This document shows, piece by piece, positions 43,859 through 64,000 of a stretch of DNA of 64,000 bases. The position numbers and the translations under genes are program-made. This stretch comes from Natronococcus occultus SP4 (GTDB taxonomy: Archaea > Halobacteriota > Halobacteria > Halobacteriales > Natrialbaceae). Positions within the stretch are counted from its first letter, which is position 1. Each line of letters opens with the position of its first letter. The notes under the pieces were generated by a model. That model was not told the origin of the DNA. It saw only the letters and a list, made by a program, of their open reading frames with translations, and did no database searches. The stretch lies in assembly GCF_000328685.1 (NCBI RefSeq), contig NC_019974.1, forward strand, positions 487,001-551,000. Direction: 5' to 3'.

Positions 43859-44647
43859 ATGCGAGACGTCTGTATCGTCGGCGGGGGCGTCGCTGGCCTC
43901 GCCGCATCGATCTTTACTGCCCGTGCGGGACTGGACACCCTCGTCGTCGACGGCGGCGAGTCGATCCTGGCGCGCAACGCCAGCCTCGAGAACTACCCCG
44001 GGTTTCCCGACGGGATCGACGCCCGTCGGTATCTCCAGCTCACGCGCGAGCAAGCCCGGAACGCGGGCGCCGAGTTCGAACTCGGCCGAGTGACGAGCGT
44101 CGAACCCATCGACAGCGCGGCTCCGTCGGAATCGCGAGGAGCCGGGGAACCCGGCGTCGAGACCGACCTCGGGCAAGGGTTCGTCCTCGAGACTGACGGC
44201 GGGGATCCGATCGAGGCACGGCGGGTAATCGCCGCCTCCTGGTCGGACAGCGACTACCTCGTTCCCCTCGACGTCGGGCGGCTCCAGCGCGGGAACAAAC
44301 ACTTCGTCAGCGTCGACGAGGGCGGCCGAACCGCCGTCGACGGCGTCTACGCGGCGGGCCGGATCGCCGACGAACCCCACCAGGCGATCGTCGCCGCCGG
44401 CCACGGCGCGAAGGTCGGCTTCGCGGTGATTCACGACGCCGACGTCGGCTTCTACCAGGACTGGGTCGTCCCCGACGGCTACTTCACGGGTCGGGGCCGC
44501 GAGGTGCCCCCGGGCTGTGAGGAGATCGACGACGAGGAACGGCGGCGACGCGACGAGCGAGCCCGGGAGACGATGCTCGAGGCACTGTCGGAGCCGCTGG
44601 AGGAACGGCCGACGATGCACCCGAGCGTCGAGCGGGACCGATCGTGA
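43859..44647 (+). CDS. Thioredoxin-reductase-like FAD oxidoreductase without CxxC
   Basis: This 262-residue flavoprotein has the FAD-binding motif CIVGGGVAGLAASIF (5-19), then NASLENYPGFPDGID and the second FAD contact VDGVYAAGRIADEPHQAIV. The size and blocks match the thioredoxin-reductase-like family but no CxxC redox pair is present, so it is not a classical reductase. The final bases overlap the NIS synthetase start (GTGA), so the two are co-translated. A possible job is supplying a reduced or hydroxylated precursor, but its chemistry is not readable. Confidence 0.8.
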   Translation: MRDVCIVGGGVAGLAASIFTARAGLDTLVVDGGESILARNASLENYPGFPDGIDARRYLQLTREQARNAGAEFELGRVTSVEPIDSAAPSESRGAGEPGVETDLGQGFVLETDGGDPIEARRVIAASWSDSDYLVPLDVGRLQRGNKHFVSVDEGGRTAVDGVYAAGRIADEPHQAIVAAGHGAKVGFAVIHDADVGFYQDWVVPDGYFTGRGREVPPGCEEIDDEERRRRDERARETMLEALSEPLEERPTMHPSVERDRS

Positions 44648-46782
44648 GTCCTCGTCGTCGTCGTCAGGTCGATGGCAAACCGGTACGCCTTCGAACGAGC
44701 GCCGAGCGTGAGACGCTGGGCGCCGCGACCGCGTACGCGCGAACGCACGGCCTCGGAACCCCGGTGGAGACGGCGTACCTCGCGGCGCTTCCGGACGCGC
44801 GCCGAGAGATCTGTCGCCGGCTCGTCCGCGGGCTGCTCCGCGGGCGTCCGGCGGCGCTTCCCGACGCCGCGTTCGTCGATCCGGCGACCCCCGCCGTTCC
44901 CGACGCACCGACACCCCTCGAGGCGCTGACCGGGGATCGGCTCCGCGCGCTCGTCGATCCGATTCCCGACGGCTGTCGTCGGCTCGCAGTGCTTCCGTTT
45001 CCGTCCTCGGAGACGGCACTGATCGCGCCGATCACGGCGAGACACGGCTACGATCGCTTCCGGTTCGTCGGTCCGACGTTCCGGTGGTCCTCGGCGGCTG
45101 CGGGACGAGACGGCGAGGACGCCGGGCGACTCACCCATCCCGTCGACCTCGTCCCGTTGCTCTCCGGCGAAGACGCGTTCGCCGACGCCGACCAGGCCGA
45201 ACGGATCCGGACCGAGCTCGCGGAGAGCGTCGCCAACCTCGCGCTGGCGCGGCTGGCGACGCCCGTCCTCGCGGGGGAGATCGAGGACCGAGTCGATTCC
45301 GCGGTCGAGTCGCCGCTCGAGGCCGTCGCGAGGGGCGTCCCGAGCGCCGACGCCGCGACCGCCTTCGAGCGGATCGTCACCGACGGCCACCCGTTCCATC
45401 CCGCCGGCAAGATCCGACGCGGGATGACCGCCGCTGACGGGCTGGCGTACGCGCCCGAGTTCACCGAGCGAATCGACCTGCGGTTCGTCGGCGTCGACCG
45501 GGAGTACGCCCTCGAGACCTGCACGGAGGGGTCCGCTGACGGTCACGGTCGGCTGACCGACCGCCTGTACGCGACGTTCGAGGGCCTCGAGGGCGCGCTC
45601 GAGCGTGCTGTTCCCGCGGGGCGGGCGGGTGAGGAGTACGCCGTCGTCCCCGTCCACCCGATGCAGTACCACCGGACGATTCCGGACCGCTACGCCGACG
45701 CGATCGAGGACGGACGGGTCGTCCCGATCCCCGACTACGCGACGCCGGCGACGCCACAGCTCAACCTCCGGACGGTCGTCCCCTACGCCACCGATCGCAC
45801 CGCCGACGGCCCGCTGCCCCACCTCAAGCTCGCGATTCCCGTCCAGACCACCAACGTCGTACGGACCCTGTCGCCCCACGCCGTGACGAACGGGCCGCAG
45901 GTAACCGACGTCGTCCGCGCGATCGAGCGCCGGGAGTCGCTCGAGGAGCTGGGGTTGCTCGCCGAGCCGGCGGCGACCTGCTACTCCCCGCCCGGCGGCC
46001 CCCACCCCGAAGGCGAGGCGTTCGACGACGCGCGTCACCTCTCCGGGCTGGTGCGACAGAACCCGTCGGCCCACCGGCTCGTCCCCGAGGACGGGATTCC
46101 GGTGGTGGCCTCGAGCCTCGTCGCCGACCTCCCGACGACCGGGCGCCCGCTCGTCCGGGAGCTGCTCGAGCGCTACGGCGAGCGGATCGACGCGGCGACC
46201 GTCGCCGACGCGGCGCGCGCCTTCCTCGAGCGCTACGTCGCGGTCGTCGTCCCCGAGCAGCTGCGCCTGCTCTCGGCGTACGGCGTGGCCCTCGAGAGCC
46301 ACCTCCAGAACAGCCTGGTCGTCTTCGACGGCCCCGAACCGGTCGCGACGCTGATTCGGGATCTCGGGGGCATTCGGATCCTCCGGAGTCGGCTCGCCGA
46401 GCGCGGGCTCGCGGTCGACCCCTACCCCGACTCGGACGTCGACGCCGCCGACGAGGCGGCCCTCTACCGGAAGCTCTACTACGCGCTCTTCCAGAACCAC
46501 CTGGCGGAGCTCGTCGCGACGGTCGCCAGCGAAACGCCCGTCGACGAACGGGACTGCTGGACCCTGGTCCGCGAGCGGTGCGATCGGGCCTTCGAGCGAC
46601 TGCGGGCCGAGGACGCGGCCTCGTCGGCGCGACTCGACCGCGACCGGGCGGCGCTGCTCGAGCAGCCGACGGACCACAAGGCCCTGACGGCGATGCGCCT
46701 GCGGGGCAAGCGCCACGAGTACGTGACCAGCCAGATCTCGAACCCGCTCGCCGCGGCTGGCCGGGAGCGGATCGTGCCGTGA
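44644..46782 (+). CDS. IucA/IucC family siderophore synthetase (NIS)
   Basis: This 712-residue NRPS-independent siderophore synthetase condenses a carboxylate (citrate type) with an amine or alcohol using ATP. Family blocks: GHPFHPAGKIRRGM, VVPVHPMQYHRTIP, QLNLRTVVPY, HLKLAIPVQTTNVVRTLSP then AVTNGPQVT, and the C-terminal FhuF-like helix region RLLSAYGVALESHLQNSLVV. It starts with GTG overlapping the preceding stop. No decarboxylase, monooxygenase or second NIS gene is next to it, unlike complete siderophore clusters. Confidence 0.9.
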   Translation: MSPRRRRQVDGKPVRLRTSAERETLGAATAYARTHGLGTPVETAYLAALPDARREICRRLVRGLLRGRPAALPDAAFVDPATPAVPDAPTPLEALTGDRLRALVDPIPDGCRRLAVLPFPSSETALIAPITARHGYDRFRFVGPTFRWSSAAAGRDGEDAGRLTHPVDLVPLLSGEDAFADADQAERIRTELAESVANLALARLATPVLAGEIEDRVDSAVESPLEAVARGVPSADAATAFERIVTDGHPFHPAGKIRRGMTAADGLAYAPEFTERIDLRFVGVDREYALETCTEGSADGHGRLTDRLYATFEGLEGALERAVPAGRAGEEYAVVPVHPMQYHRTIPDRYADAIEDGRVVPIPDYATPATPQLNLRTVVPYATDRTADGPLPHLKLAIPVQTTNVVRTLSPHAVTNGPQVTDVVRAIERRESLEELGLLAEPAATCYSPPGGPHPEGEAFDDARHLSGLVRQNPSAHRLVPEDGIPVVASSLVADLPTTGRPLVRELLERYGERIDAATVADAARAFLERYVAVVVPEQLRLLSAYGVALESHLQNSLVVFDGPEPVATLIRDLGGIRILRSRLAERGLAVDPYPDSDVDAADEAALYRKLYYALFQNHLAELVATVASETPVDERDCWTLVRERCDRAFERLRAEDAASSARLDRDRAALLEQPTDHKALTAMRLRGKRHEYVTSQISNPLAAAGRERIVP

Positions 46783-48979: not shown

Positions 48980-50917
48980 ATGGTGCAGGATCACAAGCAA
49001 TCTTCCATTGACGTCGATCGGCGACGATTACTGCAAGGTGCTGGTGGGGTAAGTATCGCAGCGGTTGCCGGTTGTCTGGGCGGGGACAACGGCGACGAGG
49101 ACGCGCCGATCCACGTTCGGCTGGAAGTCAACTCCGACAACGACGATCGGGTTCAGATGATCGACCTGATCTCGAACTCGCTGGAGGAGTCGGGCTACTT
49201 CACGACCGAAATCGAGACCTACGAGTTCAACGACTACACCCAGCGGGTGATGGACCCCGACTACGCCGAGAACGGCTACGTCCCCTGTATCGGGCTGTCG
49301 GGCACGTTCAACCCCGAGAGCTTCTGCCAGGCGCTTCACCACAGCGACAACATTGGGCAGTGCTGTAACTTAAACGGGATCAGCGACGACGAGCTCGACC
49401 AGATGATGGACGACGCTCGCTACGGTATCGACGTCGCCGACGACGACGAGGAGCGACGCGAGCGCTACGACGAGATCTGGGAGTACCTCGCCGAGGAACG
49501 GTACAGCTCGATCACGCACTTCGACCTGCAGGCCGGCGTGATGAACACCGACGTCCACGGGTTCCGACAGAACCCCTTCACCGAGAGCACGTTCGAATAC
49601 GGGCTCTACGCCCCCCAGGACGAGGTCGTCACCTGGATCGACGAGGACGCCCATCCCGACGAGACCGACCTCTCGGACCTCGAGGAGGGTGGCACCCTCC
49701 GGGCCGGCCTCACCGAGGACCCCGAGCTGTTCGATCCGCCGTACACGACCGGCGCGAACTCGACGATCGTCCAGGTGCTGATCTTCGAGCAGCTGGTCGT
49801 CAGCGACAGCGAGGGGAACCTCTACCCGTGGCTCGCCGAGGACTACGAACTCGTCGAGAGCCAGGACATCGACCGGACCGACTACGAGGAGTACATGATC
49901 GAGGTCGACGCCGACGAGGAGGGCGTCCTCGACACCGACGAGCAGGTCGTCGTCACTCACCCCGAGGACAGCCCGATCGAGGACGATACGGTCCGGGTCC
50001 TCACGCCCGAACAGGCCGGCGAGGCCGTCGAGGACGGCACCTTCGGGATGCAGTTCCAGTACGACCTCCACGAGGGAATCGAGTTCACCAACGGCGAGGA
50101 GCTCACGGCCGAACACGTCGTCGCGACCGCCGAGCGCTACGAGAACTCCGATCTGGAGGCCCAGACCTACGACTCGCTTTTGTACGCCGAGGAGGTCGAC
50201 GAGTACACCGTCAACCTCTACGCCCAGATTCCCGACGCCGAGGCCGAACGCGAGCTGCCGGGACTGTACATCCATTCGCTCGAGCAGGCCGACCTCGAGG
50301 GCGGCGAGCTCGACCCCGACGCGGGCAACGAGCCGATCGGGACCGGCCCCTACGAGCTCAGCGAGTACGAAGAAACCCAGTACATCGAGTACACCAAAAA
50401 CGACGACTACTGGCTCGAGGAGCTCGGCCTCGAGAGCAAGGAGTGGTTCGACGGCTCCGAGGAGTTCCCGGACGGCCCCGTCATCGACGAACTCGAGTTC
50501 GAGATCGTCCCCGACGACTCGAGCCGCGCCGGCGCGCTCCAGAGCGACGAGATCGACATGACCTACGGGCTGGCCACCGACGTCCTCGACGACTTCGAGG
50601 AGGACGACGACTACGTCATCGACAGCGTCGAGGCCGGCGGCTACGAGTACATCCAGTACCCGATGCACGTCGAGCCGTGGGACGACGAACGGCTCCGCCA
50701 GGCGGTCAATCATCTCATCCCGCGCGAGGAGATCGTCGACAACGTCCTCAACGGCTGGGCGCGTCCGGCCTGGACCGACCTGCCGGAGCTCGCCGAGGAG
50801 AACGGGACGACCGACGCCGAGGCCCTCGAGGAGGACATCCGGCCCCGCAACGAGTACGATCCCGAAACCGCAGCGGAGTTACTCGAAGAAGTGATCGACG
50901 ACTACGACCTCGAGTGA
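48980..50917 (+). CDS. Family 5 substrate-binding lipoprotein, apparent circular permutant (system 1)
   Basis: This 645-residue lipoprotein of an Opp/Dpp-type importer has Tat signal DRRRLLQGAGG and lipobox AAVAGC (Cys32). Residues about 43-231 look like the C-terminal lobe of the family (RLEVNSDNDDRVQMIDL, GLSGTFNPESF, GQCCN at 126-130, ELDQMMDDAR, then THFDLQAGVMNT). Residues about 237-645 contain the normal N-terminal start (GGTLRAGLTEDPELFDPPY, LIFEQLVVSD, YPWLAEDYE) and run to RPAWTDLP and a short AAELLEEVIDDYDLE end, just where the lobe found at the front would normally follow. Operon with the four genes after it; TATA at 48949. Ligand class: peptide-like. Confidence 0.88.
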   Translation: MVQDHKQSSIDVDRRRLLQGAGGVSIAAVAGCLGGDNGDEDAPIHVRLEVNSDNDDRVQMIDLISNSLEESGYFTTEIETYEFNDYTQRVMDPDYAENGYVPCIGLSGTFNPESFCQALHHSDNIGQCCNLNGISDDELDQMMDDARYGIDVADDDEERRERYDEIWEYLAEERYSSITHFDLQAGVMNTDVHGFRQNPFTESTFEYGLYAPQDEVVTWIDEDAHPDETDLSDLEEGGTLRAGLTEDPELFDPPYTTGANSTIVQVLIFEQLVVSDSEGNLYPWLAEDYELVESQDIDRTDYEEYMIEVDADEEGVLDTDEQVVVTHPEDSPIEDDTVRVLTPEQAGEAVEDGTFGMQFQYDLHEGIEFTNGEELTAEHVVATAERYENSDLEAQTYDSLLYAEEVDEYTVNLYAQIPDAEAERELPGLYIHSLEQADLEGGELDPDAGNEPIGTGPYELSEYEETQYIEYTKNDDYWLEELGLESKEWFDGSEEFPDGPVIDELEFEIVPDDSSRAGALQSDEIDMTYGLATDVLDDFEEDDDYVIDSVEAGGYEYIQYPMHVEPWDDERLRQAVNHLIPREEIVDNVLNGWARPAWTDLPELAEENGTTDAEALEEDIRPRNEYDPETAAELLEEVIDDYDLE

Positions 50918-50962
50918 GGTCGCACCGGTATCCGTTCGCAGTGTTTGATAAATGATTTCATC

Positions 50963-51919
50963 ATGAGTTTACGACGTTTCATACTGAAGCGACTGTTGTC
51001 GATCGTTCCGATCCTGTTCGGCGTCTCGGTGATCACCTTCGCGCTGGTGCATCTCACGCCGGGTGATCCGATCAGCCAGATGGTCGCGACCAACCCCCAC
51101 GTGACCGCGGCCGACGAGGCCCAGATGCGCTCCCGGTACGGGCTCGACGGCCCGATCTGGGAGCAGTATCTGACCTGGATGGGGAACGTCCTGACCGGGG
51201 ACTTCGGCGAGGTCATCAGCTCCGGCCAGGACGTCTCCTCGGTTATCATCGCGCGACTTCCCGAGACGATCGTCCTCGGGCTGTTCGGCTGGGTGTTCGG
51301 TCTCGTGATCGCGATCCCGACCGGGATCTACGCGGCCATCAACAAGGACCAGCTCGCCGACACCGTCAGCCGCTTCGTCGCGCTGTCGGGCATCTCGATC
51401 CCGAACTTCTGGCTCGGCCTGATGTTGATCCTGATCGGCGCGCTCTGGCTGGAGATCTGGACGGTGCTACCGCCCTCGCGCCTGCCGCTGTACCATCCCG
51501 AGATGCTGTTCTATCTGATCCTCCCGGGGATCACGATCGGGACCGCTGCAGCGGCGAGTATCATGCGCGTGATGCGGACCTCGATGGCCGAGGAGCTGAA
51601 CAAGGAGTACGTCACCGCGGCGCGAGCGAAGGGGCTTCCCGAGCGACAGGTCATCCTCAAACACGTGCTGCGGAACTCGCTGATCTCGGTGGTGACGCTG
51701 GCGGCGACGCTGACCGCGAGCATCGTCGCCGGTTCGGTCGTCGTCGAGATGGTGTTCAACTGGCCGGGACTTGGCCGGGAGCTCATCCAGGCGATCAACC
51801 AGCGCGAGATCAACCTCATTATGGCGATCACGCTGTTTACCGGCGTGTTCATCGTCCTGGCGAATCTGCTAGCAGACATTCTGTACGCGGTTCTGGATCC
51901 GAGGATCAGATATGAGTAG
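50963..51919 (+). CDS. dppB: ABC transporter permease, DppB/OppB-like (system 1)
   Basis: This 318-residue inner-membrane permease of a peptide-type importer has six helices. It opens RRFILKRLLSIVPILFGVS, has the FALVHLTPGDPI signature, and the EAA loop EYVTAARAKGLPERQVILKH for ATPase contact, ending ILYAVLDPRIRYE. ATG 50963 begins it; an upstream in-frame TTG is not needed. It overlaps the next gene by 8 bp. Confidence 0.93.
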   Translation: MSLRRFILKRLLSIVPILFGVSVITFALVHLTPGDPISQMVATNPHVTAADEAQMRSRYGLDGPIWEQYLTWMGNVLTGDFGEVISSGQDVSSVIIARLPETIVLGLFGWVFGLVIAIPTGIYAAINKDQLADTVSRFVALSGISIPNFWLGLMLILIGALWLEIWTVLPPSRLPLYHPEMLFYLILPGITIGTAAAASIMRVMRTSMAEELNKEYVTAARAKGLPERQVILKHVLRNSLISVVTLAATLTASIVAGSVVVEMVFNWPGLGRELIQAINQREINLIMAITLFTGVFIVLANLLADILYAVLDPRIRYE

Positions 51920-52961
51920 CAAGGAACACACCGAACGCGGACGCATCCGAATCACCGGGTTCGACCCGGACCAGGTCCGGCAGCGCGATCCACTATCGGA
52001 CTGGACCGAGGAGAGTGGCGGCGAAACCGAGGGCCGGCTCGAACGGGCCTGGAAACGGTTCAAGCGCAACCGCTCCGCGCTGATTGGACTGCTCGTGGTC
52101 GGCGTCCTCACCCTGCTTGCGATCTTCGCTCGCCCGATATCGGTGATGGGGATGACGGTCCAACCGTTCTCGATCGCACCCTACGATCCGACGGCGATCA
52201 TGTACATGAACCCCGACTCGTCGGCGGGCGTCTACGACTCGCCGTCGCTTTCCCATCCGATGGGGACCGACGGCGACGGTCGTGACCTGTTCTCGCGGGT
52301 CCTGTACGGCGGCCGCTACAGTATCTCGATCGGCTTCATCGTCGTCGGGCTCAGCGCTACCTTCGGACTGGTATACGGGGCGATCTCGGGCTACTACGGC
52401 GGCTGGACCGACGAGATCCTGATGCGAATCGTCGACACCGTCTACGCGTTCCCGGGGCTGATCCTGGCGCTGATCATCGTCGCTACGCTCGGTGGCGGCT
52501 ACTGGCAGCTCGTCGCCGCGTTCGCGATCCCGGGCTGGATCACCTACGCCCGCCTCATCCGCGGCGAGGTCCTGACGATCAAGGAAAACGAGTACGTTAT
52601 GGCGGCGAAGGCGCTAGGTGCCCGCGATCGATCGGTGATTTTCAAACACATCGTCCCGAACGCGATGCCGCCGATGATCGTCTACGGGACGCTCAATATC
52701 GGGACCGTCGTCATCGGCGTTGCGGCGCTTGGCTTCCTCGGACTCGGGATGCCGCCGGGCACCGCCGAGTGGGGAACGATGCTCGACCAGACCCGGGAGA
52801 CGCTCATTCAGGGGCCCGGCGGTTCGATCCCCTGGTGGGCGACTGTCTTCCCCGGCGGGGCGATCTTCCTGTTCGTGATGGCGATGAACATGATCGGCGA
52901 CGGAGTCAACGACGCACTGGACGCCCAGGAAACCGGTATCGAAGGGCAGGGAGGTGGATAA
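51912..52961 (+). CDS. dppC: ABC transporter permease, DppC/OppC-like (system 1)
   Basis: This 349-residue permease partner has an N-terminal cytoplasmic segment of about 55 residues, a first helix (ALIGLLVVGVLTLLAIFA), the SHPMGTDGDGRDLFSRVLYG periplasmic motif, the EAA loop EYVMAAKALGARDRSVIFKH and the late helix LGFLGLGMPPGTAEWG. It overlaps dppB by 8 bp and ends one base before dppD. Confidence 0.93.
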   Translation: MSSKEHTERGRIRITGFDPDQVRQRDPLSDWTEESGGETEGRLERAWKRFKRNRSALIGLLVVGVLTLLAIFARPISVMGMTVQPFSIAPYDPTAIMYMNPDSSAGVYDSPSLSHPMGTDGDGRDLFSRVLYGGRYSISIGFIVVGLSATFGLVYGAISGYYGGWTDEILMRIVDTVYAFPGLILALIIVATLGGGYWQLVAAFAIPGWITYARLIRGEVLTIKENEYVMAAKALGARDRSVIFKHIVPNAMPPMIVYGTLNIGTVVIGVAALGFLGLGMPPGTAEWGTMLDQTRETLIQGPGGSIPWWATVFPGGAIFLFVMAMNMIGDGVNDALDAQETGIEGQGGG

Positions 52962-52962
52962 G

Positions 52963-54048
52963 ATGGCACTACTCGAAATCAATGACCTCACGGTGAAGTT
53001 CTACACGCAGGAAGGTGTCGTCACCGCCGTCGACGACCTCTCCTACCGCATCGAGCGCGGCGAGAAGTTCGGCGTCGTCGGCGAAAGCGGCGCCGGAAAG
53101 AGCGTCACCGCCCTCTCGTTGATGCGGCTCATCGAGAGTCCGGGTCGTATCGAGAGCGGCGAGATCCTGTTCAAAGGCGAGGACTTGCTCGCGATGAGCG
53201 AGGAGGAGATCCGGACGATTCGAGGCAACGAGATCGCAATGATCTTCCAGGACGCCCAGACGGCGTTGAACCCCGTCTACACCGTCGGCGAGCAGATCGC
53301 CGAGGCGATCCGTCACCACCTCGACTACGACGAGGCCGAGGCCCGCGAGCGGACGATCCAGTTGCTCGACACCGTCGGCATCCCCGAAGCCGAGTCGCGC
53401 TACTCCGACTACCCTCACGAGTTCTCCGGCGGGATGCAACAGCGAGCTGTGATCGCAATGGCGCTGTCCTGTGACCCCGACCTGTTGCTCTGTGACGAGC
53501 CGACGACGGCGCTCGACGTCACGATCGAGGCCCAGATCCTGGAGGAGCTCGAGGAACTCGCCGACGAGTTCGACACCGCGATTCAGCTCATCACCCACGA
53601 CCTTGGTGTCGTCGCCGAGGTCTGTGACCGGGTGATGGTCATGTACGCGGGCAGTCCCGTCGAGAAGGCGCCCGTCGAGGAGCTGTACTACGACCCGAAA
53701 CATCCCTACACGGTCGGGCTGATGAGCTCGATCCCCCGTGTCGGCGACGAGCGCGAGCGATTACAGACGATTCCGGGAACGATGCCGGACCTCGTCGAGC
53801 TCCCGCCTGGCTGTAGCTTCCATCCCCGGTGTCCGTACGCCGAGGACGTCTGCACCAAGCGCGAGCCGCCGCTGCTTGATCCCGAGACGGGCCGGGACGC
53901 GTCGGGCACGGACGCCGACCGCGCGGCCGCGTGTCTCGAGTACACCGGCGAGCTGCAGGAGGGGCTGGACTATTCCGTCGAGGTCGGCGACGGCCACGAG
54001 ACCCGTACCGACGCGACCGCGCCGAACCCGGAGGGTGAACGACGATGA
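52963..54048 (+). CDS. dppD: ABC transporter ATPase, DppD/OppD-like (system 1)
   Basis: This 361-residue ATPase has Walker A VVGESGAGKSVTALSL (about residues 38-53), Q-loop [18 protein letters not shown], signature [16 protein letters not shown], Walker [15 protein letters not shown] and the H-loop LITHDLG. The peptide-transporter C-terminal extension is present (GCSFHPRCPYAEDVC). ATG 52963 (MALLEINDLTVKFY) is chosen, one base after the permease stop. ATGA overlap with the next gene. Confidence 0.95.
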   Translation: MALLEINDLTVKFYTQEGVVTAVDDLSYRIERGEKFGVVGESGAGKSVTALSLMRLIESPGRIESGEILFKGEDLLAMSEEEIRTIRGNEIAMIFQDAQTALNPVYTVGEQIAEAIRHHLDYDEAEARERTIQLLDTVGIPEAESRYSDYPHEFSGGMQQRAVIAMALSCDPDLLLCDEPTTALDVTIEAQILEELEELADEFDTAIQLITHDLGVVAEVCDRVMVMYAGSPVEKAPVEELYYDPKHPYTVGLMSSIPRVGDERERLQTIPGTMPDLVELPPGCSFHPRCPYAEDVCTKREPPLLDPETGRDASGTDADRAAACLEYTGELQEGLDYSVEVGDGHETRTDATAPNPEGERR

Positions 54049-55421
54049 CCCGGCCGGACGAGGAGCCGATCCTGCGGGCCGAGAACCTGACGAAGTACTA
54101 CGACGCGAGCAGCGGATTCATCGACGGCCTGCTCGGCCGCACGAACTGGGTCAAGGCCGTTGACGGGATCGACCTCGAACTGTACGAGGGTGAGACGCTG
54201 GGCGTCGTCGGCGAGTCGGGCTGTGGGAAGAGTACGCTCGGCCGGTCGCTGTTGCGTCTGCTCGAGCCGACCGACGGCTCGGTCTACTACCACCAGCAGG
54301 TCGACGGCGGCGACCGACGCGAGGAAGTCGAGATCACCGAGCTCTCGAGTTCGGAGCTGCGAGATCTCCGCACCGACGTCCAGTACATCTTCCAGGATCC
54401 GTTCTCGAGTCTGAACCCACGGCTGACGGTCGGGGATATCATCGGCGAGCCACTGGACATCCACGACATCGCCGAGGGTGAGGACCGAACCGAACGGATC
54501 TACGAACTGCTCGAGACCGTCGGGCTCAGCCAGAGCCACGCCCACCGCTACCCCCACGAGTTCTCCGGGGGTCAGCGCCAGCGCATCGGAATCGCCCGCG
54601 CGCTGGCGGTCGACCCGGAGATCATCGTCTGTGACGAGCCCGTCTCGGCGCTCGACGTCTCGGTCCAGGCCCAGATCCTCAACCTGCTCGAGGATCTCCA
54701 GGAGGAGTTCGGCCTCTCGTATATCTTCATCGCCCACGACCTGAGCGTCGTCGAGCATATCTCCGATCGGATCGCCGTGATGTATCTCGGGGAGTTCGCG
54801 GAGGTCGGGACGACCGAGGAGGTGTTCTCGCCGCCCCACCACCCCTACGCCGAGGCGTTGCTCTCGGCGATCCCCGAACCGGATCCGCTCTGGCAGGGCG
54901 AACAGATCCTCCTGCCAGGAACCGTCCCGTCGCCGATGAACCCGCCCTCGGGCTGTCGGTTCCACACCCGCTGTCCCCGCATCATCCCGCCCGAGGACGT
55001 CGACCTGCCACAGGACGTCTGGCGGTCGATCGTCGACTTCAAGCTGCGGGTTCGGGGCGCGGAGGAGCTCGGGGCGATCACCGCCGTCGACGACGTCGAT
55101 GACGAGGCGACCGATCCCAACGCGCTCTCCCGCGAGGCGTTCGCGTCCTCGGTCCGCGAGGAGTTCGGCCTTCCGGAGCCCGTCGCCGATCGGAGCGCCG
55201 AGCAGGCGTTGAGCGAGAGTATCGACGCGCTTCACGCCGGCGAGTTCGACGCCGCCCGCGAGCGCCTCGAGGAGGCGTTCACCTCGCCTTGCGAGACCAC
55301 CGACCCCCACCAGGTTCCAACCGGCGAGACCCACGAGATCGCGTGTCTGCTGTACGACGACCGGTACGCCGAGGGCGAGTTCCGGACCGACGACGACGCG
55401 GGCGCCGTCGCCGACGACTGA
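54045..55421 (+). CDS. dppF: ABC transporter ATPase, DppF/OppF-like with extended C-terminus (system 1)
   Basis: This 458-residue second ATPase has Walker [18 protein letters not shown]-loop [17 protein letters not shown], signature [16 protein letters not shown], Walker [15 protein letters not shown] and H-loop [10 protein letters not shown]. The usual C-terminal oligopeptide region ([16 protein letters not shown]) is split by about 100 acidic residues, then closes with [11 protein letters not shown]. It ends the operon; the next gene has its own TATA-like CTTTAGTTTT. Confidence 0.94.
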
Positions 55422-55460: not shown

Positions 55461-56003
55461 ATGCGCCGGATCTACGAGTCCTCGGCCCTCCAGCGGGACG
55501 ACGACGACCAGTTCACCCCGCGGGAACGAGAGACCGAACCCCAGTCGCTGCGGTCGATCGACAGCACCGGGCTGAGCCGGCGGCTCGTTCCGGCGTGGCT
55601 CTCCCACCGAGCGATCTCGGTCGACGTCTCGACGCCCCGATCGACCTACCCTGTCGACACCGCCGTCCCCTTCCGGGTGACGATGCGAAACGCGATGCCG
55701 TTCCCGATCACGATTACGACCCGGTCGCCGATCCCCTGGCACTGGACCGTCGATGGGCTCACCGACGCCGCCGAAATATCGCTTCACGATCCGCCCGCGG
55801 AGCCCCAGGGGTTCCGGTTCGACCGCGGCGAGCGAAAGCGGTTCACGAAACGATGGCACCAGCGCTTTCGCGTCGCCGACGACGAGTGGGAGGCGGCCGA
55901 GCCCGGCACCCACACGATCGGCGCCGGGCTGAACGTCGCCGACGCCGCCAAGAAGGGACTGTACGACGAGACGACGATTACCATCGAAGCCGACGACGCT
56001 TGA
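55461..56003 (+). CDS. Conserved haloarchaeal protein of unknown function
   Basis: This 180-residue soluble protein has no family I can name. The middle (ISVDVSTPRSTYPVDTAVPF through PITITTRSPIPWHWTVDG) looks like a beta-sandwich; the C-terminal half has THTIGAGLNVADAAKKGLYD. It follows the first transporter operon by 39 bp, but a TATA-like CTTTAGTTTT at 55432-55441 sits 20-29 nt before the ATG and suggests separate leaderless transcription. Confidence 0.6.
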   Translation: MRRIYESSALQRDDDDQFTPRERETEPQSLRSIDSTGLSRRLVPAWLSHRAISVDVSTPRSTYPVDTAVPFRVTMRNAMPFPITITTRSPIPWHWTVDGLTDAAEISLHDPPAEPQGFRFDRGERKRFTKRWHQRFRVADDEWEAAEPGTHTIGAGLNVADAAKKGLYDETTITIEADDA

Positions 56004-56054: not shown

Positions 56055-56924
56055 CTACGGCTGGAACCCACCGCCCGTGCCGTGGTCGACGTCGTTCGGA
56101 TCGAACTCGAGGAGCGGCTGGCCACAGTCCCGACACTCCAGTGCGTGGACCTCGTAGCGCTGACAACAGGACTCGACGGTGTCCTCGGTCAGCGAGAGCG
56201 GGCCGCCACAGGCCGGACACGCTCCGTGGAACGATCGCAGCGCCTCCAGCAGCTCGATCCGCTGGCCCTGGGGAACCTCGTGCCAGCGGTCCGTCAGTTC
56301 CGCGAGCGCCCGGTGGGTCGCGACGTCGGCCCGCAGGGCAGCCGTCGACGGCCACTTGTGGATCCGCCGTCCGATCCTTACGGCGGGGTACGGGCGGTCC
56401 TCGATCGAGACCGCGCCGGGCTCGATCCCGTACAGCTCGGCGACGGGCGCTGGCTCGAGGGGGTCGTCCGGGAGCGAGCGGAGTCGGTCGTCGATCAGCT
56501 CGGCGAGCGCCTCGGTGAACGCGACGTCTCCGTCCCGGGGCTCGACGGCGCCGACCTCGAGGAGAAACCGCTCGGGATCGACCGCCTGCTCGCGCTGGCG
56601 CTCGTACTCCGCGATCGTCTCGGTCGTCGCTTCCCGGTCGTCGCCGTCCTCGAGCGGGTGGGTGTCGAACCGCTCGAGGACGGCCGCCGGCAGATACCGC
56701 TTCGTTAGCGTCGGCGTTCCGGGAACGAGATACCCCCGCAGTCCGATCGCCGCGAGCGATCCCGCGAACGCGGCGACGCCGCCCGCCCGCGAGACCTTTC
56801 CGACGACGACGCTCCCCGCCGCAGCGAGGGCGACGTTGACGGCTGTACACGGCAGGCAGCGGTTCTCGCCGGTGTAGGCCGGCTTTCGGACGCGATCGAG
56901 CGTCTCCCGGATCGACTCTCTCAT
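56055..56924 (-). CDS. Haloarchaeal protein with membrane segment and C-terminal zinc ribbon
   Basis: This 289-residue protein has an early Cys pair (ENRCLPCTAVNV), a hydrophobic stretch (about residues 28-70), an acidic middle (about 75-220) and a C-terminal zinc-ribbon-like part (CPACGGPL, SCCQRYEVHALECRDCG). No family recognised. It is transcribed toward the 55461 gene and its start region is back-to-back with the second SBP promoter. Confidence 0.6.
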   Translation of the reverse strand: MRESIRETLDRVRKPAYTGENRCLPCTAVNVALAAAGSVVVGKVSRAGGVAAFAGSLAAIGLRGYLVPGTPTLTKRYLPAAVLERFDTHPLEDGDDREATTETIAEYERQREQAVDPERFLLEVGAVEPRDGDVAFTEALAELIDDRLRSLPDDPLEPAPVAELYGIEPGAVSIEDRPYPAVRIGRRIHKWPSTAALRADVATHRALAELTDRWHEVPQGQRIELLEALRSFHGACPACGGPLSLTEDTVESCCQRYEVHALECRDCGQPLLEFDPNDVDHGTGGGFQP

Positions 56925-57013
56925 AGCTCTCGGTTGTGACGGGGCGGTCAAAAACGGGGAGGCTTCTCCGTTTCAGAAGCGACATAAAATACGGTCGATC
57001 TAATGCCGACAGA

Positions 57014-57044: not shown

Positions 57045-58886
57045 ATGTCCGATAGTTCGGATGGTCAAGGTGTAGATCGGTCGCGTCGGAAGATGCTGGG
57101 GCTTCTCGGGGGAAGCGCCACCGTGGGGCTCGCGGGCTGTTCTGCTCTGCTCGATGGAGACGGGGGCGACGACGATGAGGTCGACGGTGGGGATCACGAA
57201 GTCGCCGAGCACGCCGACAAGGCACAGGCTGCCTGGGAGACCGTCGTCGAGAACCCTGGGCCGGACGAGGAAGACACCCGGAACGATGCCTACATCGAGA
57301 TCGAGGAGGCCGTCAGGGACGACATGGTGTTGCTCCCGCTGTACCACAGCAAGGGCGAGCGCTGGTGGTACGACTACGTCGACATTCCGGAGCTGGGTGC
57401 GCTCGGTAGCCACCACCAGCAGTACAACGAGGTCGAGATCGACGGTGACGACGAGCTGAACCTTCTCAACAGCACGTTCGACGAGCTGGATCCGATCATG
57501 TCGACCGACACCGCGTCGGGAACGGTTATCAACCAGCTGTACGAGACCCTAACTCACTACCCGAACGGCGTCGCCGAGGTCGAAAACCAGCTCATCGAGG
57601 ACGTCGAAACGTCCGAGGACAGCCTGGTCTGGACGTTCACCCTCCAGGAGGGGGTCCAGTTCCACGGCGGCGAGGAGCTGACGGCGGACGACGTCGTCTA
57701 CTCGTTCCGGCGGCTGGCCGAGTCCGAGTACAGCGAACGGGCGAACTTCATCCTCGGGACACCCGACGGGCTTGGAATCGAGTACGAGGAGACCGATGAC
57801 GGCGGCGTCGAACCGGACTCCCTGGGCGTCGAGGCCGTCGACGATCGGACCGTCGAACTGACGCTTCGCGAGCCGAACCCGGCGGTGCTCGACATTCTGA
57901 CTTACGACGGGTTCGCGATCGTTCCGGAGGGGATCGTCGGCGACGTCGAGGGGTACGACGGCGAGGTCGACCACGACGAGTTCCAGACCGAGATGGCAAA
58001 CGGGACCGGTCCCTTCGAGTACGACGAGTTCAATGTCGGCGAGGAGATGCGGGTCGTTCGTAACGACGACTACCACGGCACCGTTCCGAGCGTCGAGGCG
58101 GTCCACTGGGAGATCAACGAAGACCCCGAATCCATGTTCACTTACGTCATGGAGGGGAACGCCGACGTCTTCGAGAACAGCCAGATCCCCACCTCCCAGT
58201 ACGACGCGGACCTGATCGACGCCGAAGAGGACGACATGGGCCGCGAGGTCGGGACCTACGGTCCGTTCGAGAACGACGAGGAAGCCAACTACCTCGCGGT
58301 TCCCGAACTCGGGACCTACTACTTCGCCTTTAACGTCACGAACGTCCCTCGTCCCGTCCGGCAGGCGATCGCGTACGTCGTCGATCACGAGGAGCTCATC
58401 GAGGACATCCTCGAGGAACGCGGATTCGAGGCCTTTAGCTTCACGCCACCCCGGATGTGGCCGACCGGCGACGACGGCTACGACGACTGGGTCGACGAGT
58501 GGCCCTACGGCGCCAACGAGACCGACATCGAAGGTGCCCAGGACGTCCTCGACGAGACGGAGTACACGGAGGACGACCCCTTCGAGCTGACGGCCTCGAC
58601 CTACGAGTCCGCTCCCGAGTACGGCGAGATGGCCGAACTGATTCGACAGAAGCTCGGCGATCTGCCACTCGAGATCACCAACAACGAGACGCAGTTCTCG
58701 ACGCTGCAGGACCGCGGCGAGGACGGTGACCTCGAGATGTACTCGCTGGGTTGGGTCTGGAGCTGGCCGGACGTCGCGTACGGTCACTTCGGGTTCGAAC
58801 CGAAAAACACCGACACCTCCGAGATGCCGACCGACGCGACCGGCTACTACCTGGACTGGCAGGCGAACCTGGACGAACAGGCCTGA
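57045..58886 (+). CDS. Family 5 substrate-binding lipoprotein, apparent circular permutant (system 2)
   Basis: This 613-residue lipoprotein has a Tat-like signal RSRRKMLGLLGG and lipobox VGLAGC (Cys32). Right after a short acidic linker, residues about 58-137 look like the family C-terminus (AWETVVENPGP, AYIEIEEAVRDDMVLLPLYH, ERWWYDYVDIPELGALGS, QYNEV). From residue 138 the usual mature start follows (LNLLNSTFDELDPIMSTD, LYETLTHYP) with the core (GGEELTADDVVYSFRRL, GTGPFEYDEF, RPVRQAIAYVVDHEELI). The protein ends at YYLDWQANLDEQA, where the segment now at the front would normally continue. The break point is later than in the first system's protein. Confidence 0.88.
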   Translation: MSDSSDGQGVDRSRRKMLGLLGGSATVGLAGCSALLDGDGGDDDEVDGGDHEVAEHADKAQAAWETVVENPGPDEEDTRNDAYIEIEEAVRDDMVLLPLYHSKGERWWYDYVDIPELGALGSHHQQYNEVEIDGDDELNLLNSTFDELDPIMSTDTASGTVINQLYETLTHYPNGVAEVENQLIEDVETSEDSLVWTFTLQEGVQFHGGEELTADDVVYSFRRLAESEYSERANFILGTPDGLGIEYEETDDGGVEPDSLGVEAVDDRTVELTLREPNPAVLDILTYDGFAIVPEGIVGDVEGYDGEVDHDEFQTEMANGTGPFEYDEFNVGEEMRVVRNDDYHGTVPSVEAVHWEINEDPESMFTYVMEGNADVFENSQIPTSQYDADLIDAEEDDMGREVGTYGPFENDEEANYLAVPELGTYYFAFNVTNVPRPVRQAIAYVVDHEELIEDILEERGFEAFSFTPPRMWPTGDDGYDDWVDEWPYGANETDIEGAQDVLDETEYTEDDPFELTASTYESAPEYGEMAELIRQKLGDLPLEITNNETQFSTLQDRGEDGDLEMYSLGWVWSWPDVAYGHFGFEPKNTDTSEMPTDATGYYLDWQANLDEQA

Positions 58887-58969: not shown

Positions 58970-59020
58970 ATGGGCGACTATCTTCGAAACGTGTCTCGGA
59001 TTGTTCGTGGTGTCTCATGA
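58970..59020 (+). CDS. 16-codon mini-ORF coupled to permease start
   Basis: ATG at 58970 encodes MGDYLRNVSRIVRGVS; its TGA shares bases with the ATG of the permease (ATGA). It may be a leader whose translation delivers ribosomes to the permease. No conservation data. Confidence 0.4.
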   Translation: MGDYLRNVSRIVRGVS

Positions 59021-60075
59021 GTCGGTGGGGATACTTCGTTAGACGGCTTCTGTTGTCGATCCCCGTCCTGTTCCTGGTGTTGACGTTCATCTTCGCGCTG
59101 TTGCGGATGGGTCCGGTCGATCCGGTCGCCGCCAGGCTCGGTCCAGAAGCGACCGGGGCGGAAGCCGAGCGAATGCGCGAGCGACTCGGTCTCAACGATC
59201 CGCTCTGGGAGCAGTACGTCGACTTCGTCACCGACTTCCTGGTTCTCGATCTGGGCCAGTCCTGGGTCGTGTTCGCCGGCTGGGATGTCTCGTCGATCGT
59301 GATAAACTCGGGGCCACCGACGCTCTGGCTGGGCTTCTGGGCGATCCTGCTCCCGCTGTTTATCGGCATCCCGCTGGGGTTCTACGCGGGGCTTCGGCCG
59401 AACAGCTGGGGTGACTACACCGCCTCGGTCAGTGGCATCCTCTGGCAGGCGATGCCGAACTTCTGGCTGTGTATCATCCTGCTTGCCGTGTTGCGCCAGA
59501 CCCAGGGTGGCGGCTGGTTCGGCTTCGACTGGTATACGTTCGGGCCGGAGATCAGGAGTATCACCGGAACGCCGGATCTCGCCTTCCTCTCCTGGTCGAA
59601 CCTGGTCGGTCCCGTTCCGTATCCGACCGGAGTCGACTGGGGGGCACTCGCCGTCGACATCAAACTCATCCTGCCGCCCGCGCTGGTGCTTGGCTCCGCG
59701 TCGATGGCGGCCGAGTTACGTATCGGGCGGACGGCGATCCTCGAGACGATCAACTCGAACTTCGTCGAGACTGCCAGAGCGAAGGGGCTCAAAGAGCGGG
59801 CTATCGTCTGGAAACACGTCTTCAGGAACGCGCTAATCCCGCTGGTGCCGGTCATCACCAACGAGGCGTTCCTGCTGATCGGCGGCTCGGTCATCGTCGA
59901 ATCGATCTTCAACATCAACGGTCTCGGCAGGATCTTCTTCCTCGCGATGATCCAGGGTGATCTGCCGCTTGCCGGTGCGTTGCTGTTTATCTTCACGCTG
60001 ATCATCATCTTCCTGAACATCCTGCAGGACTTCCTGTACACGATCATCGATCCGCGAGTGGGGTACGAACGATGA
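59017..60075 (+). CDS. dppB: ABC transporter permease, DppB/OppB-like (system 2)
   Basis: This 352-residue permease has six helices: start MSRWGYFVRRLLLSIPVLFL, FALLRMGPVDPVAARLG, the EAA loop NFVETARAKGLKERAIVWKH and the end FLYTIIDPRVGYER. It is longer than the system 1 counterpart because of a periplasmic insert (about residues 160-215, GGGWFGFDWYTFGPEIRS and following). ATG 59017 overlaps the mini-ORF stop; its last codons overlap the next gene by ATGA. Confidence 0.92.
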   Translation: MSRWGYFVRRLLLSIPVLFLVLTFIFALLRMGPVDPVAARLGPEATGAEAERMRERLGLNDPLWEQYVDFVTDFLVLDLGQSWVVFAGWDVSSIVINSGPPTLWLGFWAILLPLFIGIPLGFYAGLRPNSWGDYTASVSGILWQAMPNFWLCIILLAVLRQTQGGGWFGFDWYTFGPEIRSITGTPDLAFLSWSNLVGPVPYPTGVDWGALAVDIKLILPPALVLGSASMAAELRIGRTAILETINSNFVETARAKGLKERAIVWKHVFRNALIPLVPVITNEAFLLIGGSVIVESIFNINGLGRIFFLAMIQGDLPLAGALLFIFTLIIIFLNILQDFLYTIIDPRVGYER

Positions 60076-61805
60076 ACACGAGAGCTACGACCGACGCGAG
60101 TGAATCGGATCCCGAAGAGACGCTGCTTCGCGAACGGGTCGTGGAGAACCCGGGCCCGGCCCTGTACTGGCTGGCCGGAGCCGCGGTGCTTGTCGCGCTC
60201 GAACTGGGACGTCTCGCCGGCTGGCTGACGGGGATCGGGTCGGCTATCGAGTTCGTGTTCGACATGATCGCCGCGATCCCCGGCTGGATCGCCGGCAACG
60301 TCGCCGACGCGACGACGCCGCTGGTCGGCTACCTCGTTAACGACGCGGTAACGCTGCTGTTGCTGTTCGGGATCGCCGCCGTGTTGCTCCGACTCGTTCC
60401 CTGGAGTCTCAGGGACCGGTTCGACGTCGGGACGCCACGAACGCGGGCCGTCCTCGAGCAGCTCGGCGTGACGGTCCTCCTGGCGGTCGTGCTGGTCGCG
60501 CTCCTGTTTACGCCGATCGGGGGACTCCTCAGAACCGCCGTCGTCACCCCCGTCGACCTGCTGTCGTCGCTTCCGTCGCTGACCAGCCACGAACTCATCT
60601 CGAATCAGGGCCACCGAACGCCCGACGGCGGGTGGGACGGAACCTTCCTCGGACTCTCGCCCGCAGTCGCGTGGGGCATTCGGGTCCTGCTCGTCTACGG
60701 CTATGCCTTCGCCGTCCTCGCCTGGGTCTGGAAGGGGTACAACGTCTTCCGCGATCACTACCGCCAGGCCGACTGGACGCCCCGGGACGACACGTTCGCC
60801 CGGTTCCGGAACCACTACTGGGGACTGTTCGGTCTGCTCGTCGTAGTGTTGTTCATCGTCACTGCTCTCTGGGCACCAGCCGTAAGCCCGGCCACGGCCG
60901 AGCAAAACATCTACTCGCCGTACTCCTACGAGGTACAGTACCTCGAGGACGGCGAGGTCGCCACGACGACGGTCGGGGACGCGAACCTCGGCAGCCAGTC
61001 CGACGGACAGAACACGATCGGGCCGATGAGCTACGACGACTACGATCGCTGGGCACCGTTTGGCACCACGCCGAACGGACAGGACTTGCTCACACACGTC
61101 GCCTACGGGGCCCAGACCTCGCTCGTGATCGGGCTGCTGGCGATCGGTCTGGGCGGACTGATCGCGGTCACGATGTCGCTGCTGACCGCCTACTACAAGG
61201 GTGCCGTCGACGTCCTGACCGTGGTCGCAAGCGACACGATCATCTCGATCCCGGCGTTCCTGCTGGTGATGATGCTGTCGGTGATCTTCGATCAGGGTGA
61301 TCACGTCCTCGCGGAGCCGCTCAACGGGGGTGTGCTCCTCGGGTTGATCTTCGCGTTCGTCTACTGGCCCGGGATGTGGCGCTCGATACGGGGGCCCTCA
61401 CTCCAGGTCGCCGAGGAGGAGTGGGTCGACGCCGCCAAGAGCTACGGCCAGACGCCGGCGAACACAATGCGTAAGCACATGGCTCCGTACATCGCCGGAT
61501 ACATCATGATCTACGGCTCGCTGCTGCTCGGCGGCGTTATCATCTTCACCGCCGCTCTCTCGTTCCTCGGCCTGGGTATCAACGCACCCACTCCCGAGTG
61601 GGGGCGGCTCATCAGCGACGGCGAGGCGTACGTCTCGACGTCGTCGTGGCACGTCGCGACGATCCCGGGACTGATGATCGTCCTCGTTGTCACTGCCTTT
61701 AACGCGCTCGGTGACGGGCTTCGCGACGCGATCGATCCCGAGACCGCAGCCGGCGACGCCAACACGGACGACACCGGTGCCGCGGCAGCCGGAGGTGGTG
61801 GCTGA
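60072..61805 (+). CDS. dppC: ABC transporter permease, DppC/OppC-like with long N-terminal membrane extension (system 2)
   Basis: This 577-residue protein is about 230 longer than ordinary DppC. The first 220 residues carry four or five extra hydrophobic segments (YWLAGAAVLVALELGRLAG, AVTLLLLFGIAAVLLRLV, GVTVLLAVVLVALLFTPIG, AWGIRVLLVYGYAFAVLAWV). The standard permease then starts with DWTPRDDTFARFRNHYWGLF, with TTPNGQDLLTHVAYG, EAA loop EWVDAAKSYGQTPANTMRKH and LSFLGLGINAPTPEWG. ATGA overlaps on both sides. Confidence 0.9.
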   Translation: MNTRATTDASESDPEETLLRERVVENPGPALYWLAGAAVLVALELGRLAGWLTGIGSAIEFVFDMIAAIPGWIAGNVADATTPLVGYLVNDAVTLLLLFGIAAVLLRLVPWSLRDRFDVGTPRTRAVLEQLGVTVLLAVVLVALLFTPIGGLLRTAVVTPVDLLSSLPSLTSHELISNQGHRTPDGGWDGTFLGLSPAVAWGIRVLLVYGYAFAVLAWVWKGYNVFRDHYRQADWTPRDDTFARFRNHYWGLFGLLVVVLFIVTALWAPAVSPATAEQNIYSPYSYEVQYLEDGEVATTTVGDANLGSQSDGQNTIGPMSYDDYDRWAPFGTTPNGQDLLTHVAYGAQTSLVIGLLAIGLGGLIAVTMSLLTAYYKGAVDVLTVVASDTIISIPAFLLVMMLSVIFDQGDHVLAEPLNGGVLLGLIFAFVYWPGMWRSIRGPSLQVAEEEWVDAAKSYGQTPANTMRKHMAPYIAGYIMIYGSLLLGGVIIFTAALSFLGLGINAPTPEWGRLISDGEAYVSTSSWHVATIPGLMIVLVVTAFNALGDGLRDAIDPETAAGDANTDDTGAAAAGGGG

Positions 61806-63160
61806 TGTCCCTCGAACAGTCCGCCACGGAGACCTCCGAGCGCGGAGAGCCGATCCTCGAGGTCCGGAACCTGCAGACCGCCTTCTTCACCGAGAAGGAG
61901 ACGATCCGAGCCGTCGACGACGTCGGCTTCGCTATTCGACCAGGAGAGACCGTCGGGATCGTCGGCGAGAGCGGTTCGGGCAAGAGCGTCACCGCCCGCT
62001 CGATCATGGGGCTGGTCGACTCGCCCGGTCGCGTTCTCGACGGGAGCAGCATCCGGTTCTCTCATCTCGAGACCGTCCGGGAGTACGCCGAGGCGTTCCC
62101 CGACCGGACCGTCGACCTCGAGTCGCTGCGAGCCGAGTACGACCCGGTCGAGCTGTTCGACCGGTCGGACGTCGACGTCGAACCGACGGACCTCGGACAC
62201 GAGCGAGCCAACGAGGTTCCCCTCGAGGACGTCGTGGCCGCCGGCTACGGCGACGTCCTCGGCGTCGACGGCGACGACTGCGTGTTCGTTACGGACGGCT
62301 CCCCGGCGTCGCCGTCCTCGATCGCGGAGGGGTTCGTCGAGCTCACGCGACTCAGCGGCGAGTCACAGCGACGCATGCGCGGTGGGCGGATCGCGATGGT
62401 GTTCCAGGATCCGCTAACGAGCCTCAACCCCGTCTACACGGTCGGCAACCAGATCAAGGAAGCGCTCCGTCTGCATCAGGGACTGCGCGGCGAGGCCGCG
62501 ACGCGGGAGGCCGCCGAGCTGCTCGAGGACGTTGGCATCCCGGACGCCAGACGGCGGGTCAACGAGTACCCCCATCAGTTCTCGGGCGGGATGCGCCAGC
62601 GGGCGGTGATCGCGATGGCGCTGGCCTGCGATCCGGAGCTGTTGATCTGTGACGAGCCGACGACGGCACTCGACGTGACGATCCAGGCCCAGATTCTCGA
62701 TCTACTCGCGGAACTACAGGAGAAGCGAGATCTCGCGATGATGTTTATCACCCACGACATGGGCGTCATCGCGGAGATCAGCCACCGCGTGAACGTCATG
62801 TACGCCGGCGAGATCGTCGAGACTGCGGGCGTCCACGACCTGTTCGCGGATCCGAGACACCCCTACACCCAGGGGCTGTTGCAGTCGATCCCGGGCCGAC
62901 AGGAGGGTGATCGACTGCAGACGATCGAGGGGAACGTGCCGACGCCCAATCAGCCGGCGACGTCCTGTCGGTTCGCGCCGCGCTGTCCGAAGGCGTTCGA
63001 GGACTGCGAGGCGGTCCATCCCGTCTCCGTCCCCGTCGAGGAGGGAGCGACCGACCACACCGCGGCCTGTCTGCTTTACCCCGAGGAGCTGCCGACCGAG
63101 GAGGCGGTCGCCAGACACCAGCGACGAACCGACGCCGAAACTCGAGGCGATACCGAATGA
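61805..63160 (+). CDS. dppD: ABC transporter ATPase, DppD/OppD-like with large insertion (system 2)
   Basis: This 451-residue ATPase has Walker [18 protein letters not shown]-loop [18 protein letters not shown], signature [16 protein letters not shown], Walker [16 protein letters not shown] and H-loop FITHDMG; the C-terminal peptide-transporter region is [14 protein letters not shown]. Between Walker A and the Q-loop there are about 100 extra residues (about 84-180, beginning after [10 protein letters not shown]) where relatives have only a short IRFDGEDLL-type hairpin. It overlaps its neighbours at single ATGA/GATG junctions. Confidence 0.93.
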
Positions 63161-64000
63161 GCCAGGAAGCGATTCGATCGGAGACCGACGCACCGACCGG
63201 AAGCGACGAGGAGACGCTGATCTCCGTCCGGGAACTCAAGACCTACTACGATGACGGCGGACTGTTCGGCGGGACGCCGGTCAAGGCCGTCGACGGCGTC
63301 AGCTTCGACGTCCGTCGCGGCGAGACGCTGGGACTGGTCGGCGAGTCCGGCTGCGGGAAGACGACGCTCGGCCGGACGCTGCTCCAGCTCGAGGAGGCGA
63401 CTGCGGGCGACGTTCTGTTCGACGGGACTGACGTCACGACGCTTAGCGGCGACGAGCTCCACGAGTGGCGCCGGAACGCCCAGATGGTGTTCCAGGACCC
63501 CGAATCGAGCCTCAACGATCGGATGACGATCGGCGAGATCGTTCGCGAACCGCTCGACGTCCACGACTGGAAGACGCCCCGCGAGCGGCGCCAGCGGGTC
63601 AAGGAACTGCTCGCGACCGTCGGCCTCCAGCGCGAACACTACTACCGCTACCCCCACCAGTTCTCCGGGGGGCAACGTCAGCGGATCAGCATCGCCCGAA
63701 CGCTGTCGCTCGAGCCCGACTTCGTCGTTCTCGACGAGCCCGTTTCGGCGCTCGACGTCTCGGTTCAGGCCGAGATCATCAACCTGCTCGAGGACCTCCA
63801 GGAGGAGTTCGGCCTGACCTACCTCTTTATCGCCCACGACCTCTCGGTTGTCAGACATATCTGCGACCGGGTCGCCGTGATGTACCTCGGAAACGTTATG
63901 GAGATCGGTCCGACCGAGGAGCTGTTCGCGAATCCCTCGAACCCCTACACTCACTCCCTGCTGTCGGCGATCCCCGAACCCGATCCGACGAGCGATCGCG
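63157..64000 (+). CDS. dppF: ABC transporter ATPase, DppF/OppF-like, 3' end outside window (system 2)
   Basis: 281 codons are visible before the window ends. Walker [18 protein letters not shown]-loop [17 protein letters not shown], signature [16 protein letters not shown], Walker [16 protein letters not shown] and H-loop [10 protein letters not shown] are intact, and the frame is open at [12 protein letters not shown]. It begins with an ATGA overlap and completes the second importer. Confidence 0.93.

Follow-up and report, generated by a model that had tools for sequence, protein, structure and literature searches.

Background

Natural circular permutations of proteins are usually known as single, old events, with the linear partner absent from the same genomic place. 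Among ABC substrate-binding proteins, the nearest precedent to the case described here is TpMglB-2 (Tp0684; the 'Type Ic / Cluster Bc' glucose-binding lipoproteins), which, in the part of its report drawn on here, has a Type I / cluster B sugar-binding fold, is described from treponemes and Gram-positive bacteria in one topology, and retains its binding function, with anchoring proposed by the authors as the driver (PMC4990184). Its permuted parts are poorly similar in sequence, and no same-operon linear orthologue is described in that part of the report (PMC4990184). Engineered permutants of periplasmic binding proteins (e.g. ribose-binding protein halves) show that such folds withstand being rotated or cut; these are laboratory constructs, neither natural nor recurrent (PMC9815098). 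Two further proteins serve as points of reference: EppA, of cluster C, in which the C-lobe (domain III) comprises residues 303–530 of 563 and is flanked by hinge strands (PMC7312458), and DppA, in which D436 of the precursor (D408 of the mature protein) binds the peptide amino group (PMC12136057).

A binding lipoprotein with exchanged parts

The window that we analysed is a stretch of 64,000 nucleotides of Natronococcus occultus SP4 (genome of 4.31 Mb in 3 contigs) with two neighbouring importer operons, systems 1 and 2, whose substrate-binding proteins (SBPs) we call P1 and P2. P2 is made up as follows.

57045–58886 (+): P2 SBP gene, a 613-aa open reading frame (ORF), from the sequence
57045–57140 (+): residues 1–32, Tat-type signal peptide and lipobox (RRKMLGLLGGSATVGLAGC, Cys32), in front in linear as well as permuted members, from the sequence
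57141–57212 (+): residues 33–56, Asp/Gly-rich tether linker leading to the new N-terminus, from the alignment of permuted orthologues
57213–57449 (+): residues 57–135, family C-terminal segment now in front (B-type permutation), from matches to linear orthologues
57450–58883 (+): residues 136–613, family N-terminal strand through domain III, from SBP_bac_5, linear orthologues, PDB matches and breakpoint mapping

By homology, P2 is a predicted binding lipoprotein of the SBP_bac_5 (DppA/OppA/NikA) class: the Pfam profile SBP_bac_5 (PF00496) matches residues 178–579 with E 3e-63, and it scores 214.5 bits for P2 and 185.8 bits for P1 against a curated cut-off of 32.4. The signal of P2 has the twin arginine (residues 14–15) and lipobox cysteine (residue 32; RRKML...LAGC32) of an archaeal Tat lipoprotein, with predicted processing; R14, R15 and C32 are at least 90% conserved across 20 orthologues, and the twin-arginine and lipobox pattern is present in 109 of the 111 permuted rows scanned. 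The nearest named relative is from Natronococcus jeotgali (87% identical).

What sets P2 apart is the order of its parts. The segment in front bears the motifs AWETVVEN (from residue 63), DDMVLLPLYH (92–101) and QYNEV and ends in VEIDGD, which serves as the linker fusing the old C-terminus to the old N-terminus; the family N-terminal strand, LNLLNSTFDELDP, follows at residues 138–150. The chain ends with ...YYLDWQANLDEQA at residue 613, and the breakpoint, which we call B, lies at DWQANLDEQA, about mature residue 436 of DppA. The original prediction had placed these motifs correctly, as we found on re-reading the ORF, and its claim that the family C-terminal strand set precedes the family N-terminal strand is borne out by BLASTP, in which P2 and its linear orthologues match as two swapped blocks with about 47–58% identity in the closest members. 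For example, P2 residues 133–610 match residues 50–530 of linear L032 (58% identical) and residues 57–133 match L032 532–608 (54.5%, E 5e-23), while against linear L030 the corresponding pairs are 136–607 with 301–771 and 54–133 with 774–853 (56%, E 4e-27). In all of L030, L032, L033, L041 and L047, it is the last 77–80 residues that the moved segment matches. On a re-linearised profile that segment occupies positions 473–553, and P2 as a whole covers 1–474 plus 473–553 of 553, with nothing missing. At the level of sequence, then, P2 is confirmed as a natural circular permutation, i.e. swapped homologous blocks relative to a linear relative with no part lost. Neither P2 nor P1 has the canonical N-to-C order of the SBP_bac_5 domain; for both, family membership stands by homology and canonical topology does not.

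Might residues 57–135 be an extra N-terminal domain, or the gene a chimera or an assembly error? Annotation does leave room for that reading: Pfam and NCBIfam show the core only, which conceals the swap. However, residues 58–137, when searched for homology to a different family, returned the same family, and none of the close linear homologues carries an extra N-terminal domain of this kind; instead, residues 57–135 are homologous to the last 77–80 residues of linear orthologues, and the core is without that segment at its own end. The permuted arrangement also recurs in dozens of independent assemblies with dN/dS of about 0.1. Homology and recurrence together rule out all three readings, to which we give next to no credence. 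All 20 of the full-length public-genome relatives retrieved with a permuted query have the order and ends of P2, the exception being L019, which ends early. Between P2 and the 87%-identical orthologue L009, dN/dS is 0.098 in the moved segment and 0.135 in the rest, and thus both parts are under purifying selection. In L019 and L040 (Halorubrum saccharovorum type), the permuted protein stops with ...NGFYRLC in place of LDWQTELEEEAE, probably through a frameshift.

An AlphaFold model of P2 (mean pLDDT 59.7, pTM 0.55) was built from close relatives only, which accounts for its modest quality, and it served for fold search alone; the packing of residues 57–135 therefore rests on homology. From residues 133–136 to 613, the model aligns with NikA 4–430 (of ~499) and DppA 29–469 (of 535, precursor numbering), and the last ~70 residues of the two solved chains that are left uncovered are the part that P2 carries in front. 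With Foldseek E values down to 2e-19 and VIA Z scores up to 16 for residues 133–613 against CtaP, NikA, DppA and OppA, this low-confidence model points to the two-lobe fold of cluster C.

A second permuted protein and the operon context

The genes of system 1 and the remaining genes of system 2 are as follows.

48980–50917 (+): P1 SBP gene (system 1), from the ORF
48980–49102 (+): P1 signal peptide, lipobox Cys32 and short linker, from the sequence and the match to L101
49103–49684 (+): P1 about residues 42–235, family C-terminal part in front plus joining linker (E-type), from BLASTP and profile
49685–50914 (+): P1 residues 236–645, family N-terminal part ending at the E breakpoint (LLEEVIDDYDLE, about DppA mature 340)
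50945–55421 (+): system 1 permeases and ATPases, four genes, from ORFs, in an order kept beside linear and permuted SBPs
59017–60075 (+): system 2 DppB-type permease, from Pfam BPD_transp_1 and BPD_transp_1_N, a conserved neighbour
60072–61805 (+): system 2 DppC-type permease with a long N-terminal extension, from Pfam BPD_transp_1 and OppC_N
61805–63160 (+): system 2 ABC ATPase 1 (DppD-type), from Walker A GESGSGKS, a conserved neighbour
63157–64000 (+): system 2 ABC ATPase 2 (DppF-type), from the sequence, a conserved neighbour that continues past the window end

The SBP of system 1 had been said to be permuted at another point, with about 190 residues moved as against about 80 in P2, and this too is correct: relative to linear L101 the blocks of P1 are swapped, opening at the E breakpoint, with P1 227–645 matching L101 79–497 (63%) and P1 43–223 matching L101 499–679 (55%) in BLASTP. 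The linear orthologues L101–L103 are about 55–63% identical to P1 over both blocks. P1 residues 1–41 match L101 residues 28–68, the signal peptide stands in front as it does in linear L101 and L102, and the signal peptides of linear L103 and permuted L109, which form a pair, are near-identical. Such sharing between linear and permuted relatives indicates that rotation affected the mature domain while the signal in front of it stayed where it was.

Both systems are predicted DppABCDF/OppABCDF-type importers, each with two permeases and two ATPases, the assignment in system 2 being by Pfam (BPD_transp_1) for the permeases and by Walker motif and position only for the ATPases. The operons are the same around linear and permuted proteins. 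In the P1 family, the order Hpt–SBP–permease–permease–ATPase–ATPase–ORF180 surrounds linear (genomes G075, G060) and permuted (G054, G085) SBPs, and the part from SBP to ORF180 is also found in G047 (linear) and G038 (permuted); in the P2 family, SBP–permease–permease–ATPase–ATPase surrounds linear (G013, G085) and permuted (G046, G045, G038) SBPs. The permeases and ATPases are about 55–87% identical across linear- and permuted-SBP operons.

Several features of the surroundings deserve mention in their own right. The DppC-type permease of system 2 (60072–61805, +) has an N-terminal extension of ~235 aa ahead of OppC_N that is kept in orthologues beside both linear and permuted SBPs. A 180-aa ORF (55461–56003, +) without a Pfam match comes right after system 1, as it does in the orthologous operons that we checked, and is about 47–67% identical among orthologues, making it a candidate accessory component. 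Between the two importers is a 298-aa ORF (56055–56951, –) that contains paired Cys motifs and matches nothing in Pfam, and upstream of both is a 712-aa ORF (44644–46782, +) that we take, by eye, to resemble an IucA/IucC-type (NRPS-independent) siderophore synthetase. At G150:C2:850698–855018, P1-family and P2-family SBP genes adjoin divergently, both linear.

Distribution of linear and permuted forms

In a sample of 391 Halobacteria genomes, one per species, scored from profile match ranges rather than gene by gene, 60 have a P2 orthologue, which 42 of them carry permuted at P2's loop and 18 in linear form; of the 80 with a P1 orthologue, 36 have it permuted and 44 linear. A profile (A1) made from re-linearised sequences and searched against 116 Halobacteria genomes returned full-length collinear matches (linear), matches of 1–479 plus 477–558 (B, the P2 type), matches split into 1–349 plus 346–554 (C) and a single match of 126–554 plus 5–129 (D). 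Together with a further group, F, groups C and D thus add to B and E. A 246-genome draw from the phylum yielded no match to the P2-family profile, the only one used there, at E ≤ 1e-40 outside Halobacteria.

Group F includes three SBP_bac_5 proteins of the P2 genome itself (L006, L007 and L008), permuted at E's loop, and five of the eight SBP_bac_5 proteins of this genome are permuted. The F family is present in 74 of the 116 genomes, and its origin is not polarisable because no linear member was found among the matches listed. Relatives on named plasmids of Haloferax gibbonsii, Haloarcula and Haladaptatus carry no annotation beyond 'ABC transporter substrate-binding protein'. The three F genes of the P2 genome lie on C1 at ~1.007, ~1.010 and ~1.681 Mb, L006 and L007 being tandem paralogues. 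The D-type permutation occurs only in G067 (L076), a genome that also has a distant 185-aa ORF, L098 (G067:C1:332 kb), that matches no more than the initial ~130 positions of the profile and may be a piece of a second copy.

Number of permutation events

Aligned with E. coli DppA and OppA, the breakpoints fall on mature DppA (507 residues) at ~434–438 (B), ~320 (C), ~124 (D), ~338–340 (E) and ~340 (F). By this placement, the new termini of B, C, E and F would lie in the C-lobe and those of D in the N-lobe. In a tree built from 86 P2-family proteins after re-linearisation, group C forms a single clade (SH-aLRT 100), and linear rows separate it from B. When the families are combined in one tree, E falls in a family of its own that has linear outgroups and F makes up another clade; neither joins B, C or D. 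Linear rows surround each of B, C, D and E. The alignments and trees together indicate a minimum of five permuted groups, opened at four positions in the structure.

Two explanations for the differing breakpoints of P1 and P2 had been offered, namely that permutation happened more than once or that a permuted form slid its termini. Descent of both from one permuted ancestor is suggested by their presence as permuted lipoproteins in neighbouring operons and by the C, E and F breakpoints, which are within 20 residues of one another on DppA. Against it, P1 and P2 belong to different families; both families contain many linear members and have linear orthologues in the same operon, and a single origin would demand many precise reversions. 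We judge sliding from one ancestral permutation to be very improbable and drop it, each protein lying inside its own family with linear members. The first explanation is supported: the re-linearised phylogeny, proposed for deciding whether the two are sisters, has them arise separately in two distant families, each with close linear orthologues in the same operon position.

Within groups the history is less simple. Linear L030 and L197 fall among permuted rows within B, and linear L103 pairs with permuted L109 in E (100/99). AU tests reject B as one clade (p 0.003 in a first set, 0.0065 in a larger one) and E as one clade (p 0.0027) and do not reject E plus L103 as one clade (p 0.21), with p values that are somewhat optimistic given that the first trees prompted the tests, and with some weak inner forks. 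Either reversion to linear or repeated opening of the same loop is therefore needed. Gene conversion of one block was considered as an explanation for L103 among permuted rows and rejected: the L103/L109 pairing is the same from the whole protein and from each segment alone.

Are the nested linear rows (L030 and L197 in B; L103 and the L101/L174 group in E) reversions, or was the same loop opened independently two or three times? The second answer draws on the rejection of B and E as single clades, on slight differences between two B subgroups in C-terminal end and junction, and on the linker of the L101/L174 group, which resembles that of ancestral linear members. On the other side are an X-Y linker motif common to most E subclades, a Phe-Pro ahead of the strand of L103, a feature frequent in E that the other linear rows of the alignment lack, and the survival of E plus L103 in the AU test. 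We leave both answers standing and rate repeated opening at a little less than even odds.

A proposed route

A review of circular permutation reportedly covers a general duplication–fusion–truncation model, and our proposal follows it. The most likely start would be an in-frame tandem duplication of the mature coding region, after which the C-terminus of copy 1 would be fused to the linker of copy 2 and, lastly, copy 1 would lose its front and copy 2 its back. In keeping with this, the E junction still carries the tail end of the native linker at the N-terminus (ETDLSDLQEGG versus EVDFADLQEGG in linear members), as duplication–fusion–truncation predicts, and a linker of only about 5–15 residues connects the old termini. 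Profile scans for tandem-fused intermediates found no two-copy ORF in the fetched loci, where long open frames were without a second copy.

In P2, the old N- and C-termini, both in the N-lobe, would have been fused via a few residues and the new termini opened in a loop of the C-lobe (domain III), with fold and binding cleft presumably retained and the lipid tether moved from the N-lobe to the C-lobe. Like events at other loops may have given E (system 1), C, D and the old, widespread F, and the order would have changed again within the B and E families, some of these extra changes perhaps being reversions. We consider it very probable that P2 works as the binding lipoprotein of a DppABCDF-type importer and that its permutation took place in situ and left the preceding Tat/lipobox signal as it was; transport would then be retained.

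Binding pocket, tether and selection

At the position aligned with DppA D408, P1 has Thr, and P2 and its linear orthologues have Ser. With the aspartate replaced in both, DppA-like recognition of a peptide amino group is not expected, and since Ser is common to permuted P2 and its linear orthologues, the change in the pocket is not tied to permutation. Likewise, linear members are also lipoproteins, and thus tethering alone fails to explain permutation; what would differ between the two forms is which lobe holds the tether.

Is permutation then selectively neutral, such that any surface loop near an allowed position will do and the tether site is irrelevant? The coexistence of linear and permuted orthologues in one operon context speaks for neutrality, as does the shared Ser in the B family. 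However, the breakpoints cluster, with D alone in the N-lobe by the published domain limits (PMC7312458), and permuted forms are retained in many genera. We find neutrality nearly as easy to accept as to doubt, with doubt slightly ahead.

Comparison with known systems

We found no report of permuted SBP_bac_5 or haloarchaeal SBPs in the open-access literature; what appears to be new is permutation of SBP_bac_5 in archaea, the number of events, the in-place pairs of linear and permuted orthologues, and the mixed states. With DppA, OppA and NikA, P2 shares family and fold, by profile and fold search, and the five-gene importer layout; it differs from them in its rotated mature domain, its lipid anchor and the replacement of D408 (Ser in P2, Thr in P1). 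The linear haloarchaeal proteins L030, L032, L101 and L103 are closer still, with the same operon, the same type of signal peptide and 55–63% identity over both blocks, and they have the canonical order.

P2 resembles TpMglB-2, as described in the part of that report used here, in being an ABC substrate-binding lipoprotein that was circularly permuted in nature and kept its N-terminal tether (PMC4990184). P2 lacks the Type I / cluster B fold with permuted N-lobe that defines Type Ic / Cluster Bc; it is by homology a cluster C SBP_bac_5 protein, from archaea, with several breakpoints across its relatives and 50–60% identity to linear orthologues in the same operon. One protein family in one archaeal class thus appears to have been permuted several separate times, at four structural positions and in otherwise unchanged operons, as though nature had repeated the "circular permutation" experiment.
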